In this document: positions 19,935 through 24,675 of the stretch, in pieces
How the letters are laid out: every line of letters starts with the position of its first letter
Numbering within the stretch: position 1 is the first letter of the stretch
IMG/VR virus record: IMGVR_UViG_3300025913_000098
Span: 1 to 26,718 of that record
Source: a virus
Direction: 5' to 3' (one strand)
Length of the DNA stretch: 26,718 bases
The notes under the pieces: model-generated
Told to the model about the DNA's origin: nothing
Databases searched by the model: none
Seen by the model: the letters and a program-made list of their open reading frames with translations, nothing else
Position numbers and translations under genes: made by a program

Positions 19935-20264
19935 ATGAACATCCGCGTCCATCTTTCATCGGTAGCCGGCAGCGATGAGAAAACCATTGAGGCCATCGAG
20001 CAGGCTATTAAGGACCGGCAACCGTTCGGCTTGAAATGTCAGCGGTCGACCATTGTATTCATCACGCATCAATACAAGGTGTACTGGATATGGAGCGACG
20101 GGGAGCCCGGGCCTGTGGTCGTTCTGGACAACCTGAAGGGGTTTATAGACCATGTTCGAATTCAATACCTATCCCACAAAGACCTTGTATCAACGGACGA
20201 ATTATTGGGCATAGCCAAATTATTACAGTATGAGCAACAACAAAAGCGTTTGGGACTTCTGTGA
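19935..20264 (+). CDS. Hypothetical protein opening the sugar island
   Basis: I start the gene at ATG 19935 (109 residues), not at the upstream TTG 19878, since that stretch is occupied by the terminator. The product has MNIRVHLSSVAGSDEKTIEA, a central strand region (TIVFITHQYKVYWIWSDG) and helices at the end (LGIAKLLQYEQQQKRLG). I recognise no family. It overlaps the GT25 gene by 35 nt, so the two are probably co-translated. Confidence 0.65.
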   Translation: MNIRVHLSSVAGSDEKTIEAIEQAIKDRQPFGLKCQRSTIVFITHQYKVYWIWSDGEPGPVVVLDNLKGFIDHVRIQYLSHKDLVSTDELLGIAKLLQYEQQQKRLGLL

Positions 20265-20880
20265 GGTGAAGTATTGCCTGAATCAGAACAGCAGGCCGGA
20301 CCGATGGACGCAGGCGCAGGGGGAATTATCCCGGGTGAAGATGGAAGGAGTTGAGCGGTTCGCGGCCCTGCCAGCTGACCGACCTTTCAAATCCTTTTGC
20401 CTCAGCCAGTATGCGCTGTTAAAGAGCTTTCTGGCTACAGGGAAGGAAACGCTGCTGGCGATGGAGGATGATGTTGTATTCCGAGATCTGGGGCACCTGC
20501 CAGCGGCTTTACAGGCGCTTCCAAAAGATTGGGACATACTATACCTGGGAGCAAACATCACGGCCATGGTCCATGGGATTGATGTAAACCCACCTGAGCC
20601 ATGCAGCTGGACAAAGCATCTATGGCGTGTCCGCCGGGCCTGGACGACGCATTGTATAGCCTATACACGCAATGTAGCTCAAAGGATTGTTGACGCATAT
20701 CCAATCCACTCCTTTGAGATGTACGACTGCTGGTTGTCTAATAACATCCTGGAGCTGTCCAACGCTTACCTGATCAATCCCATGGTCGCATGGCAGGCCC
20801 CCGGTAAAAGCGATCTGTGGGGCCAAGAGACGGACTATACTGGGGCATTTATTCATGGAGATAAAATAATGAGTACATGA
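20230..20880 (+). CDS. Glycosyltransferase, GT25-like
   Basis: The 216-residue protein has the GT25 plan: an N-terminal strand with VKYCLNQNSRPDRW (the usual form is INLDRRPDR), RFAALPA, then LLAMEDDVVF (EDD at 79-81, metal and nucleotide-sugar site) and WDILYLGANI at 101-110, with WTTHCIAYTR further on. GT25 enzymes move galactose or similar sugars to lipooligosaccharide or to protein hydroxylysine. The donor and acceptor cannot be told. It is somewhat shorter than many GT25 members (about 240-280). It leads the sugar genes placed after the capsid gene. Confidence 0.85.
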   Translation: MSNNKSVWDFCEVKYCLNQNSRPDRWTQAQGELSRVKMEGVERFAALPADRPFKSFCLSQYALLKSFLATGKETLLAMEDDVVFRDLGHLPAALQALPKDWDILYLGANITAMVHGIDVNPPEPCSWTKHLWRVRRAWTTHCIAYTRNVAQRIVDAYPIHSFEMYDCWLSNNILELSNAYLINPMVAWQAPGKSDLWGQETDYTGAFIHGDKIMST

Positions 20881-21032
20881 GATTATTCGGAACCATATTA
20901 CTGATCCTGCTATTCTTAGCGATGGTTTTGGTCATATTATCCCTGTGCTACTCAGTGCTCCTGATAATAGGCTCCGTGTTAGCAATTATCATCCTTTTCA
21001 TTTGTGCATTCATAATTTACGTTAATGATTAA
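20877..21032 (+). CDS. 51-residue two-helix membrane protein
   Basis: The ATG at 20877 overlaps the GT25 stop as ATGA, and the TAA at 21030-21032 overlaps the next gene, which starts at 21025. The peptide MRLFGTILLILLFLAMVLVI and on is almost wholly hydrophobic, with two likely helices (about 4-22 and 26-48) and the end YVND. Both overlaps and the composition argue for a real gene. A membrane anchor for the glycosyltransferases, or a holin-like protein, are possible; neither is shown. Confidence 0.65.
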   Translation: MRLFGTILLILLFLAMVLVILSLCYSVLLIIGSVLAIIILFICAFIIYVND

Positions 21033-21771
21033 ACTCGTCACCTTCACCGACTCCCGCATGACCATAAGCGCCAACAAGTGCGCTCAGTCGGCCATGCAAC
21101 ACGGAGCCACAAGTTACAGCATATGGACACCCGATGATCTATCGACTGAGTTCCGTGAGACAATGGCCGATGTATTGAAGCATGAGCGCGGCGCCGGTTT
21201 TTATTGCTGGAAGCCTTACATAGTTCACCTGGAAATGTGCCGATTGAAAGATGGCGACATTCTCGTGTACTGTGACGCGGGCAATGAATGGGTAGGCGAT
21301 ATGCGACAGGCTATTGACGCCATGGACCAGGACATTCTTTTCTTCTCGAATGGATGGCGGCATATGGATTGGTGTAAAATGGACACAGCCTTTGCGATTA
21401 TCCCAGAATCATTTTGTGATTTTGATGGGGAATTCGCCACATGCGGTATTCCACTGGATGGATTAAGGCAAGTCCAGGCTTCAACCTTCTTTGTCCGTGT
21501 CTCCCTGGAAACGCGGAAATTCATCCAGGAATGGTACGCATGGTCATTGGTCCCTGGCATGATCGACAATGAGGCCAGCAAGCTCCCCAACGTGCCGACC
21601 TTCCAGGAACATCGCTGGGATCAATCAATCCTGTGCTGCCTTCAGATCAAGTATGGATACCGATTGCATTGGTTTCCAACGACTACAGCCGGACATTTAA
21701 GGTCAGGCCACGAAGGCGACAAATATCCCGTACTTTTAAATCATCATCGAAAACGCAATCATGAGTGGTAA
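21025..21771 (+). CDS. Glycosyltransferase-like protein (WKPY/DAG family)
   Basis: The 248-residue protein has GAGFYCWKPYIVHLEMCRLK at 56-75 and DGDILVYCDAG at 76-86. In the family I recall, this is the GxGxWxWKPYxIxxxL...GDILxYxDAG pattern found in capsular and phage carbohydrate clusters; DAG stands where the DxD metal site of GT-A enzymes lies. Near the end, HRWDQSILCCLQIKYGYRLH and LLNHHRKRN agree with that family. Donor and acceptor unknown. Its context among other sugar genes supports the call. Confidence 0.75.
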   Translation: MIKLVTFTDSRMTISANKCAQSAMQHGATSYSIWTPDDLSTEFRETMADVLKHERGAGFYCWKPYIVHLEMCRLKDGDILVYCDAGNEWVGDMRQAIDAMDQDILFFSNGWRHMDWCKMDTAFAIIPESFCDFDGEFATCGIPLDGLRQVQASTFFVRVSLETRKFIQEWYAWSLVPGMIDNEASKLPNVPTFQEHRWDQSILCCLQIKYGYRLHWFPTTTAGHLRSGHEGDKYPVLLNHHRKRNHEW

Positions 21772-21988
21772 AGTATGGTTTTTGGCCCCCTTTCGGCGCC
21801 GCAAAATAAAAGGGATCGAGATGTTCGCCAATCTGGAAAATAAGGAAGAGCCGCGTAAGGTTTGCAGTAATTGTGGCGCTTTCATCATGGGTGAACGCTT
21901 TATTTTAGAGGTCAAAATAGGCGGGCAGCCTGTTGAAAAGAAAACGGATCTATGTCAACCTTGTTATAATAAATTGAAAGAGCTATGA
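21761..21988 (+). CDS. Small zinc-ribbon protein
   Basis: The 75-residue product has two Cys pairs, VCSNCGAFI and LCQPCYNKLK, at spacing suited to one zinc ribbon. The ATG at 21761 overlaps the previous stop; a second in-frame ATG at 21821 would drop the basic first 20 residues (APFRRRKIKG) and may be the real start. Role unknown. It ends as ATGA with the methyltransferase. Confidence 0.6.
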   Translation: MSGKVWFLAPFRRRKIKGIEMFANLENKEEPRKVCSNCGAFIMGERFILEVKIGGQPVEKKTDLCQPCYNKLKEL

Positions 21989-22617
21989 GCACGGCTAAAG
22001 CAACCAAGCATATCAACTTTTACGCTAAGTACGGTACCGACATCCACTCGCAGAACGGCGAAGATGGCGTTCTTTCGGAAGTCTTCCGGAGGCTGAAGAT
22101 CGACAAAGGAATCTTCTGTGAGTTCGGCGCAGCTGACGGCATCTTTTGCAGTAATACCCGCTTGCTCCTGGAAAATGGCTGGTCTGGAAAGCTCATTGAG
22201 GCCGATCCTGCCAGGGCAAAGGCACTCATAGATAACACCCTTGGCAAGAAGATTGAGTTGTATTTCGGGCCAGTGACCGCCCAGAACGTCAATGAGCTGA
22301 TCCCGGCGACGCTCAACCTGTTGTCGATAGATGTCGACAACGACGATTTCAACATATGGAACGCCTACAGAGGCGTTGCTGACGTAGTAGTGATCGAGGT
22401 CAACAGTTCCATTGCCCCGCCGGAAGTGGTCATACCGGGCACCAGAGGGGCATCCTATAGCGCCATGGTCATGCTGGGGCTATCCAAAGGGTATTTCCTG
22501 CTGGCGCACAAAGGCAACTGTATTTTCCTATTGAATAAATATCGCAATCTTTTTCCCGAGATCGAGGGAGATGGCGTTGCGAACGCGGACCTATACTTTG
22601 ACAGGTCTTGGCTGTAA
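21985..22617 (+). CDS. SAM-dependent methyltransferase, FkbM-like
   Basis: The 210-residue protein shows HSQNGEDGVLSEVFRRL, then motif I GIFCEFGAADGIFCSNT at 42-58, NGWSGKLIEADP at 64-75 (the acid that holds the SAM ribose), and LLSIDVDNDDFNIW. It is the Rossmann-fold type often found in O-antigen, glycan and cyanobacterial or phage clusters, where it probably O-methylates a sugar. The end, SYSAMVMLGLSKGYFLLAHK, is as in the family. Substrate is inferred from neighbours. Confidence 0.85.
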   Translation: MSTAKATKHINFYAKYGTDIHSQNGEDGVLSEVFRRLKIDKGIFCEFGAADGIFCSNTRLLLENGWSGKLIEADPARAKALIDNTLGKKIELYFGPVTAQNVNELIPATLNLLSIDVDNDDFNIWNAYRGVADVVVIEVNSSIAPPEVVIPGTRGASYSAMVMLGLSKGYFLLAHKGNCIFLLNKYRNLFPEIEGDGVANADLYFDRSWL

Positions 22618-22656
22618 TGTGTAAGTCGTCGATAAAGCTGCGGCGGTTCATTCCGC

Positions 22657-23442
22657 ATGCTGACAAATTCCTCCATTGGGCGGTATGGCAGATTCGCCAA
22701 TGCGCTGTTTCAGATAGCAGCCGTCATAGGTATTGCCCGGAAAAGTGGCCAGCCTTACGGCTTTCCTCCGTTCATAAATTGGGATCATAAGGAACGGTTT
22801 GGCTCAACTGAAGACATTGAGCTGGACAAATACTTCGTGAACCCACTGCCGCGCTTGTCAGACGCCGGCATCCTTCCATTTAAAAAGAAAGAATATCCAT
22901 GGGGCTACCATGATATTTACCTGCCTTCTGGCTGCTGGGATCTCTCCGGCCATTTCCAGAGTGAAAAATACTTCAAGCATTGCATTGATGAGATAAGGCA
23001 CTACTTCAAGATGAAGGATGAGCCTGGGATTATCCATTCCGTGGCTGTGCATTGCAGAAAAGGTGACTATGATAATGCCTACCACCCTGTTTTGGGGCCA
23101 GATTATTACTGGAAGGCAATAGGGCAATTCCCCAAAGGGAAAACCCAGTTTATAGTTTTCTCCGATGACATAGCAGCCGCCGAATCCATGTTTACGCTAA
23201 TGGGTTTCCCGCCGTCGCCTACCATGATTTTCTCCAAGGGCCGCAACTATATCGAGGACTTTAAGGTAATGAAATGCTGCCAGCACTTCATTACCGGCAA
23301 TTCCTCTTACTCCCTTATGGCGGCTATCCTGGGAGAACATCCTGAAAAGAAGATCGTATGCCCGGCCAACTGGTTTGGACCAGCATGGAGTATCCCGATG
23401 GAAACAAAAGACTTGTACCCTGAAAATGCGATAGCGATATGA
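22657..23442 (+). CDS. Alpha-1,2-fucosyltransferase-like, GT11
   Basis: The 261-residue protein has the GT11 motifs: GRYGRFANALFQ near residue 8 (usual GRLGNQLFQ), SGHFQSEKYF at 97-106, VAVHCRKGDY at 129-138 (usual HxRRGDY, GDP-fucose site), FSDD near 171 and ITGNSSYSLMAA near 212 (usual SNSSFSWW). It would add fucose, or a related sugar, in alpha-1,2 linkage to galactose. Several motif residues are altered (RKGDY, FAN), so donor specificity may differ. A 39-bp gap sets it apart from the methyltransferase. Confidence 0.85.
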   Translation: MLTNSSIGRYGRFANALFQIAAVIGIARKSGQPYGFPPFINWDHKERFGSTEDIELDKYFVNPLPRLSDAGILPFKKKEYPWGYHDIYLPSGCWDLSGHFQSEKYFKHCIDEIRHYFKMKDEPGIIHSVAVHCRKGDYDNAYHPVLGPDYYWKAIGQFPKGKTQFIVFSDDIAAAESMFTLMGFPPSPTMIFSKGRNYIEDFKVMKCCQHFITGNSSYSLMAAILGEHPEKKIVCPANWFGPAWSIPMETKDLYPENAIAI

Positions 23443-23672
23443 TAGAAGAAACATGGCTACCAATTAAAGGTTATGAGCTGCTTTTTGAAGTAAGTACGCA
23501 TGGTCGCATTAGAAGTCTTGCCAAGAGAAGTCGGAAGACTGTTCTACATCTGTTGTCCGGAGTGTATTACGACAGCGCCAGAGAGGCTTATAACCAATCG
23601 AACGGAGAGATCAGATTTGAGGTCTTCTGCAAAAATATTCGTAACAACAAAAACTACACATATGGGGCTTAG
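23439..23672 (+). CDS. Orphan NUMOD4-domain protein, homing-endonuclease relative without HNH
   Basis: The 77-residue product opens with a clear NUMOD4 motif: EETWLPIKGYELLFEVSTHG then RIRSLAKR, as at the start of HNH homing endonucleases. It then goes straight to GVYYDSAREAYNQSN and NIRNNKNYTYG, which resembles the C-terminal DNA-binding repeat of such enzymes. The HNH nuclease that should lie between is missing, so this is either a decayed homing endonuclease or a reduced DNA-binding protein. Its ATG overlaps the GT11 stop as ATGA and its end overlaps the likely GT4 start at 23662. Confidence 0.7.
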   Translation: MIEETWLPIKGYELLFEVSTHGRIRSLAKRSRKTVLHLLSGVYYDSAREAYNQSNGEIRFEVFCKNIRNNKNYTYGA

Positions 23673-23721
23673 GTTGCTATTTTCAGTACATCTTTATCCG
23701 CCAAAACACAATTGCCCGTAG
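23662..23721 (+). pseudogene. 5' fragment of the GT4 gene, cut off by an in-frame amber codon
   Basis: ATG 23662 opens a frame that reads MGLRLLFSVHLYPPKHNCP and stops at TAG 23719-23721. This is the typical first strand and PPKHN loop of a GT4 enzyme, which the longer downstream ORF lacks. The same frame resumes after the palindrome as RGGEYFIHN directly before the ATG at 23791. So the two parts once formed, or still form, one protein. The ATG overlaps the end of the NUMOD4 ORF by 11 nt, in the window's normal style. Confidence 0.75.
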
Positions 23722-23757
23722 CGGCCGGTCTTTAATTAGGTCGGCCGCTACGGGTGC
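23713..23757 (+). repeat. 40-bp perfect palindrome inserted in frame in the GT4 gene, flanked by TGC codons
   Basis: CCCGTAGCGGCCG (23715-23727) and CGGCCGCTACGGG (23742-23754) are perfect 13-bp inverted arms with a 14-nt AT-rich loop. TGC at 23713-23715 and TGC at 23755-23757 are in the same frame, 42 nt apart. The frame holds TAG at 23719, within the stem, and TAG at 23737 in the loop. TTG/CAA outside the arms can add pairs. No T run follows, so it is not an ordinary terminator. Confidence 0.9.
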
Positions 23758-23790
23758 AACCAAAGAGGGGGAGAATATTTTATTCACAAC

Positions 23791-24675
23791 ATGGCCAAAT
23801 ACTTGGTGAGCAGGGGCCATCAATGCCGCGTTCTGCTCCACCAAGGGAAGAAATATGGCATCACTAAGCCCTACGATTACGAGGGGGTAGAGGTGTTCCC
23901 AGCGGAAAAGCAATTGGACACGCATTTCCATTGGGCGCAAAAGGCAATCACCCACCTGGAATACACCAAGTGGACAGCACTGATCTGCAGGACCATGAAA
24001 AAGCCGGTGATCTTCATAGCTCACAACACATCAGGTTATTATAACTTCCTGAATGACGACCGTCTGCCCATCAATGTTATCTACAACAGCCGCTCAGCCA
24101 AAGAGTTATTGAACTACAACAAGCCATCCATGGTCCTTCACCCGCCGGTTGACTGGCGGAAATATGACGTCTGTCCCGATCCTAGCAAGAACCGGTTTAT
24201 TACCCTGATCAACCTGAATGACAATAAGGGCGGGAATGTCTTCTATGAGATCGCCCGCCGGATGCCCGAGAAGATGTTTCTGGGGGTAAAGGGAAGCTAT
24301 GACGAACAAATTGTTCAGAACGTGCCCAATGTCATCCTCATGGATAACACGCCCCATATCCTGCCCATTTACCAGCAGACGCGTATCCTGCTGATGCCAT
24401 CGGCATATGAATCCTGGGGCATGACCTGTACTGAAGCCATGTGCAATGGTATCCCAGTTATATGCACCCCCACGTTCGGCCTATCGGAGAACGCAGGAGC
24501 GGCCGGCATATACGTGGAGCGGGACAATATTGATGGCTGGGTCAAAGAAATTAAAAGGCTGGATAACAAAAAAACGTACCTTCGGCAAAGCGAAATATGT
24601 AGGCATCGTTCACGCGAACTGGACCCCTTACAGGAGTACCAGGAGTTGGAAAACTTCATCCAAAACGCAAAATAA
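23791..24675 (+). CDS. Glycosyltransferase, GT4 family (N-terminus interrupted)
   Basis: The uninterrupted frame gives 294 residues from ATG 23791, MAKYLVSRGHQCRVLLHQGK and on. Open codons before it (RGGEYFIHN) belong to the family's N-terminus, so this ATG is probably internal. The C-terminal GT-B half is intact: FITLINLNDNKGGNVFYEIA, LMPSAYESWGMTCTEAM with the EX7E motif, NGIPVICTPTFGLSENAGAA. As made from 23791 it lacks the first beta strand and GG loop of the acceptor domain and might be inactive. If ribosomes pass the palindrome between the two TGC codons, a 323-residue protein from 23662 results, a normal GT4 size for small members. GT4 enzymes retain the anomeric configuration and use nucleotide sugars. 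Confidence 0.85.
   Translation: MAKYLVSRGHQCRVLLHQGKKYGITKPYDYEGVEVFPAEKQLDTHFHWAQKAITHLEYTKWTALICRTMKKPVIFIAHNTSGYYNFLNDDRLPINVIYNSRSAKELLNYNKPSMVLHPPVDWRKYDVCPDPSKNRFITLINLNDNKGGNVFYEIARRMPEKMFLGVKGSYDEQIVQNVPNVILMDNTPHILPIYQQTRILLMPSAYESWGMTCTEAMCNGIPVICTPTFGLSENAGAAGIYVERDNIDGWVKEIKRLDNKKTYLRQSEICRHRSRELDPLQEYQELENFIQNAK

Follow-up and report, generated by a model that had tools for sequence, protein, structure and literature searches.

Ribosomes probably bypass a mobile, endonuclease-linked hairpin at an invariant motif of phage GT4 genes

Recurrent interruption of a phage GT4 gene at a single codon boundary suggests that ribosomes skip a mobile hairpin. We analyzed a 26,718-nt stretch (hereafter the window; the 26.7-kb IMG/VR virus record IMGVR_UViG_3300025913_000098) in which a GT4 gene, one of several glycosyltransferase-like genes, is split by a 51-nt insert that forms an 18-bp hairpin (Table 1). 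The original prediction, made from this sequence alone, proposed a translational bypass element like that of bacteriophage T4 gene 60 and tied to a homing endonuclease gene. Comparison with other phages strongly supports this core idea, although the clues first offered for it were partly wrong. The insert is real and far beyond chance, because a hairpin of equal geometry occupies the same GT4 codon in 16 other contigs and is absent from intact homologues. It recurs at an exact site, has an RNA structure conserved on the sense strand, interrupts the gene independently of frame, lies within coding sequence under purifying selection, is linked to an endonuclease gene, and is mobile. From these sequence features we infer that ribosomes bypass the hairpin, and the most probable explanation is a mobile cassette, comprising a NUMOD4-HNH endonuclease gene and a hairpin, that is tolerated through bypassing as in T4 mobA/gene 60.

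The insert lies at an identical codon boundary in 17 contigs including the window, the 16 others coming from independent metagenomes, which rules out an assembly artefact. All share an 18-bp stem and a 6-nt loop and start at the second base of a TGY codon, here the putative take-off codon. The 17 contigs hold 10 distinct hairpin sequences in about four sequence families: family 1 (window, L002, L239, and L250), family 2 (L236/L238/L241, L237, L242, L244/L246, L247, L249, L264, and L268), and the singletons L243 and L253. Carriers were found, mainly among viral contigs, by patterns set only on the flanking protein motif and thus blind to the hairpin, which matched mostly hairpin-bearing genes, and by an endonuclease alignment search, which added L253, L264, and L268. 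The closest relative, L002 (94% identical in GT4), also carries the insert, with four differences: a compensatory pair (23720 A to T with 23749 T to A), one change from G-U to A-U, and one loop change. The stem TAG is gone in L002 and the loop TAG is retained.

Uninterrupted relatives define the boundaries of the insert. It separates GT4 residues C16 and G17, two direct neighbors that are invariant in 20/20 intact homologues. Both the insert and the endonuclease gene are missing from L003 and L004, whose protein reads HNCGGE and in which the stop of the upstream glycosyltransferase family 11 (GT11) gene overlaps the GT4 start. The empty site is seen directly when L236 is compared with intact L161, and no intact GT4 locus fits the hairpin model. 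Exact removal of the insert always yields HNC|G(A/G/S)E (HLC in L264). Both kinds of relative that the original prediction had said to look for, with and without the insert, thus exist, and they make 51 nt (23716–23766) the most likely insert length in place of the 42 nt first proposed. Other elements of that description hold: ATG at 23662, TGC at 23713–23715, TAG at 23719 and 23737, TGC at 23755, and the continuation of the frame after this last codon as NQRGGEYFIHN into GT4. The perfect 13-bp arms (23715–23727 and 23742–23754) are likewise present, but what had been described as a palindrome extends, as an RNA stem, to 18 bp with a 6-nt loop.

Sequence covariation demonstrates that the hairpin is maintained as RNA. 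In the window its local fold reaches −43.3 kcal/mol (z = −6.1 vs. shuffles), and there is no second perfect hairpin of this kind in that stretch. Across the 10 distinct sequences, 99.4% of cells in the 18-pair helix are paired and 13/18 pairs show two-sided changes; covariation is 0.778 compared with 0.242 when shuffled (0/500), and slid or shuffled controls collapse. Helix cells include 30 G-U and no A-C combinations, so selection acts on the sense mRNA strand. A transcription terminator or DNA-level palindrome is disfavored by the same G-U bias and by the absence of a U tract. Covariation extends even to the wobble position of the take-off TGY, where the pair is C-G in nine sequences and U-A in L243. 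The first base past the 17-bp core stem (23755 in the window) is U in all carriers, forming an invariant basal G-U pair with the G of the take-off TGY. The window and L002 differ at 4/39 core sites, with the fold retained at all of them. Core identity is 33–36/39 within family 1 and 38–39/39 within family 2, while the endonuclease genes carried with the hairpins are saturated at synonymous sites (family 1) or have a synonymous divergence (dS) of 0.6–1.1 (family 2). Near-identical cores beside such diverged sites indicate that the hairpin is old and constrained, and cores are far more conserved than synonymous sites of both the adjoining endonuclease and GT4 genes. The same helix could in principle serve removal of the 47–51 nt from mRNA as a mini-intron before translation, since its base juxtaposes both junctions and excision would explain, with no need for matching codons, why the boundaries are exact in both families. 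We consider this very unlikely: the junctions sit at the helix base, outside bulges or loops, excision would not account for the UGC conserved where family 2 inserts end, the window hairpin has no significant match in Rfam, and we know of no bacterial intron class of this size.

The interruption is tolerated regardless of reading frame. Inserts are 47, 48, 49, 50, or 51 nt long, so each of the three frames is occupied by the GT4 body in some carriers, and the body is always open and conserved. Every insert contains an in-frame stop. For the window and the singletons L243 and L253 the first one is insert codon 2, for the other copies codon 8, and for none codon 1. Codon 8 is a stop in every copy of family 1 (window, L002, L239, and L250) and of family 2. 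Thus the stem amber once taken as a clue is not conserved (TTG in L002 and L250, TGG in L239) whereas the loop-end stop is, and the kept frame of the window is incidental, since other inserts measure 47–50 nt. Stop-codon readthrough or TAG reassignment, by which the insert would be translated, fits the window's length, divisible by three, but is excluded by the range from 47 to 51 nt: inserts of 47, 49, and 50 nt shift the frame, which refutes it for most copies. Family 2 uses TGA, and the main genes of the window phage have 0 internal TAG codons, three of them ending in TAG. We regard translation through the insert as extremely improbable.

Hairpins are strongly associated with a homing endonuclease gene and appear to have spread horizontally. 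L002 has a complete 179-aa NUMOD4+HNH_3 endonuclease gene directly upstream of GT4, of which the window retains only the two ends; the NUMOD4 reading frame noted there at first is present, but it is a remnant of such a gene rather than an orphan. A NUMOD4-HNH gene lies directly upstream of GT4 in 7/10 pattern-found carriers compared with 0/69 intact genes (P = 4e-8; collapsed carriers found without use of the endonuclease, leaving out L253, L264, and L268, and intact genes with enough upstream sequence). In L161 and L182 the endonuclease copy differs and lies further upstream, next to another gene. GT4 and hairpin are retained after loss of the endonuclease gene in the window, L236, L247, and L249. 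Mapping hairpin presence onto the GT4 tree requires 9 gains or losses, at least 8 of them forced by well supported branches, and near-identical family 2 hairpins occur in GT4 genes with identities down to 67%, which points to horizontal spread. In several of these phages a second NUMOD4-HNH-like gene separates the major capsid gene from its neighbor (L246:4765-5253, L244 likewise but reverse-complemented, L161:1391-1879, and L182:1061-1798), with no comparable hairpin seen alongside.

Substitution patterns indicate that the leader and the G-x-E codons of carriers are under purifying selection. Between the window and L002 the GT4 body has a dS of 0.54 and a ratio of nonsynonymous to synonymous substitution rates (dN/dS) of 0.06, and the leader shows 3 synonymous and 0 nonsynonymous changes over 15 codons; the leaders of L237 and L242 differ by 7 synonymous and 1 nonsynonymous changes. 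No carrier has a frameshift or stop in the body. One alternative is that the insert inactivates GT4 and the cassette is purely selfish, residing in a dead gene, as the in-frame stops in all copies would allow and as phages could afford if their glycosyltransferases are dispensable, which they may be. Against this stand the low dN/dS between two carriers, the open bodies, the conserved sense-strand structure, and the persistence of gene and hairpin after endonuclease loss. Decay of GT4 in close homologues, which the original prediction had named as telling against bypassing, was not seen, and inactivation is in our view quite unlikely. Alternatively, the leader might end inside the hairpin and a second start might yield a shortened GT4. 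TGATG stands at the loop in every family 2 copy of 47 nt, with its ATG in the GT4 frame (MHPQEVLCGAEW...), and most copies encode a Met soon downstream of the insert. Yet neither the 48- and 49-nt copies nor the window's family have an in-frame ATG within the insert, and in the window insert GTG and TTG, like ATG, are missing from the frame of GT4. In an AlphaFold model of the intact L003 protein (mean predicted local distance difference test score 92.1), strand 1 comprises residues 2–7 and helix 1 begins at G17, so the insert sits between the two. A start at 23791 would drop residues 1–24, i.e., strand 1 and half of helix 1 in the predicted fold, together with the invariant HNC-G-x-E motif, whereas selection persists on the leader and G-x-E codons. 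Reinitiation therefore seems unlikely.

Under the explanation we favor, a cassette of endonuclease gene and hairpin would invade YPPxHNC|G, the most conserved motif of phage GT4 genes, and GT4 would be kept functional through ribosomes skipping the insert. The ribosome would decode up to the UGC at 23713–23715, where the 18-bp hairpin, beginning at the second base of that codon, would block or occupy the A site. Peptidyl-tRNA would then release, the ribosome would slide over 47–51 nt, and decoding would restart at GGN (GGG 23767 in the window). The hairpin would also interrupt the target of the endonuclease, which presumably cleaves intact alleles, and thereby spare the carrier genome. A landing rule is suggested by family 2, where every copy has UGC immediately 5′ of the resume codon (UGC|GGN) after tails of 8 to 10 nt and variable sequence, as would be expected if ribosomes landed on a codon identical to the take-off UGC.

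Several observations weigh against bypassing of this form. No copy has a stop right after the take-off codon, unlike T4 gene 60. In family 1, L243, and L253 the tail ends AAC(M)AAGA before GGN, so that the codon preceding the resume codon is AGA, which cannot pair with tRNA-Cys. UGY is not nearby in L239, L250, L243, and L253, where codon-matched landing fails; in the window and L002 there is a UGY near the tail end, but nine bases too early. Codon matching thus does not appear to explain landing in the window's family, although a study of T4 cited in PMC3014915 reportedly found, to judge by its title, that minimal pairing can suffice. A T4-like nascent-peptide signal is not recognizable in the 16–18 residue leader, where another signal is possible. 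Finally, because cassettes move, flanking sequence could in part have been conserved before the insert arrived, but the window-L002 pair and the old divergence of the endonucleases argue against this as the whole story. Two specific hops were also considered. The TGC-TGC match of the original prediction is probably incidental, since the second TGC (23755) is common to the window and L002 only (TTG in L239, TCG in L250), and a 42-nt hop between these codons in the window is unlikely, being not conserved and leaving NQR inside the invariant C16-G17 junction. A hop from AAU to AAC would be out of frame for L250, L243, and L253. The resume codon GGA is commoner in carriers than in intact genes (11/14 vs. 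6/54, P = 2e-6), a preference that could reflect either function or co-transfer/co-conversion.

The closest known system is the T4 mobA/gene 60 bypass cassette, as described in PMC3014915, PMC5009743, and PMC11194080 and by Bonocora 2011 as cited in PMC4592705. Sliding in T4 gene 60 is efficient up to 56 nt (PMC11194080). Comparison with the T4 sequence shows that in both systems the take-off codon (GGA in T4, TGY here) is part of the stem from its second base onward. Here, too, a noncoding insert is precisely missing from homologues, the take-off stem-loop includes the take-off codon, and an HNH endonuclease gene adjoins the insert but not insert-free alleles (7/10 vs. 0/69). The systems differ in host gene and take-off codon (topoisomerase and GGA in T4, GT4 and UGY here), hairpin (short with UUCG vs. 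18-bp stem with 6-nt loop), first stop (immediately 3′ of the take-off codon vs. usually codon 8), landing codon (matched in T4, in family 2 only here), and nascent peptide (KKYK about 30 residues upstream vs. a 16–18 residue leader without KKYK). Moreover, unlike in T4, the insert recurs at one site in many phages with several unrelated stem sequences. In mitochondria of Magnusiomyces capitatus, byp elements are similarly numerous, short, translationally bypassed inserts of suspected mobile origin (PMC5009743, PMC4592705). In this yeast they are scattered over 81 mitochondrial sites and decoding is relaxed, in contrast to a single recurrent, endonuclease-linked site in a phage gene. Rickettsia palindromic elements are also found within protein-coding genes. 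Palindromes in such genes are reported for Nematomorpha mitochondria (PMC6649704). In both cases the palindromes are translated, whereas the phage inserts contain in-frame stops and break the frame.

To our knowledge, T4 gene 60 has for decades stood alone as a well-studied natural case of bypassing among bacteria and phages, and without relatives its bypass rules are hard to tell from accidents. With ten distinct variants from nature at a single site, in three frames and with or without a matching landing codon, take-off and landing requirements become directly testable. The variants also suggest a route by which a homing endonuclease may enter an invariant coding motif while the gene survives. 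More broadly, phages may carry widespread, horizontally moving bypass elements defined by geometry rather than sequence (an 18-bp stem from the second base of UGY, a 6-nt loop, and an 8–12 nt tail), by means of which endonucleases invade invariant coding motifs, with one family landing without codon matching; on this larger claim we are evenly divided.

Table 1. Features of the interrupted GT4 locus in the window
Feature	Position	Strand	Remarks
GT11 gene, upstream neighbor	22657..23442	+	Intact relatives: direct overlap of its stop with the GT4 start
NUMOD4-HNH homing endonuclease gene remnant	23439..23672	+	In-frame loss of 102 residues; HNH domain absent
GT4 5′ part (MGLRLLFSVHLYPPKHNC)	23662..23715	+	Resembles start of intact GT4 genes L003/L004; last codon is the putative take-off UGC 23713-23715
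RNA hairpin, 18 pairs	23714..23755	+	23714-23731 with 23738-23755; 6-nt loop 23732-23737; from fold and covariation
Putatively skipped insert, 51 nt	23716..23766	+	Exact deletion gives HNC|GGEY; compared with intact homologues and other interrupted genes
Stem TAG, in frame	23719..23721	+	Within its hairpin family, in the window copy only
Loop-end stop, in frame	23737..23739	+	TAG or TGA at this codon (insert codon 8) in both main families
Insert 3′ tail after stem (GCAACCAAAGA)	23756..23766	+	Precedes resume codon GGG 23767
GT4 body from resume codon GGG 23767 (GGEYFIHNMAKYL...)	23767..24675	+	Pfam PF13692/PF00534; vs. L002 dS 0.54, dN/dS 0.06

Searches beyond the carriers returned few related sequences. 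Strict hairpin arms had no match in all viral contigs (the window's own record perhaps lying outside that search), and a loose palindrome search in genomes returned palindromes that are apparently unrelated. None of 396 Bacteroidota genomes had a GT4 match at E 1e-40; the same genomes held one lone endonuclease gene, without such a hairpin, and the hairpin model gave seven weak, mostly partial matches to Bacteroidota genomes. Neither the GT4 gene nor the family 2 hairpin region was matched at the DNA level in annotated phage genomes. Within the window, positions 20230–24675 form a cluster of glycosyltransferase-like and related genes flanked by capsid and head-tail connector genes (assigned by reading of open reading frames, without a family search), an arrangement that recurs in relatives. 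The start of the contig (1–186) is an imperfect tandem repeat coding for a repeated YQSAATNTG/YRSAATNTG unit.
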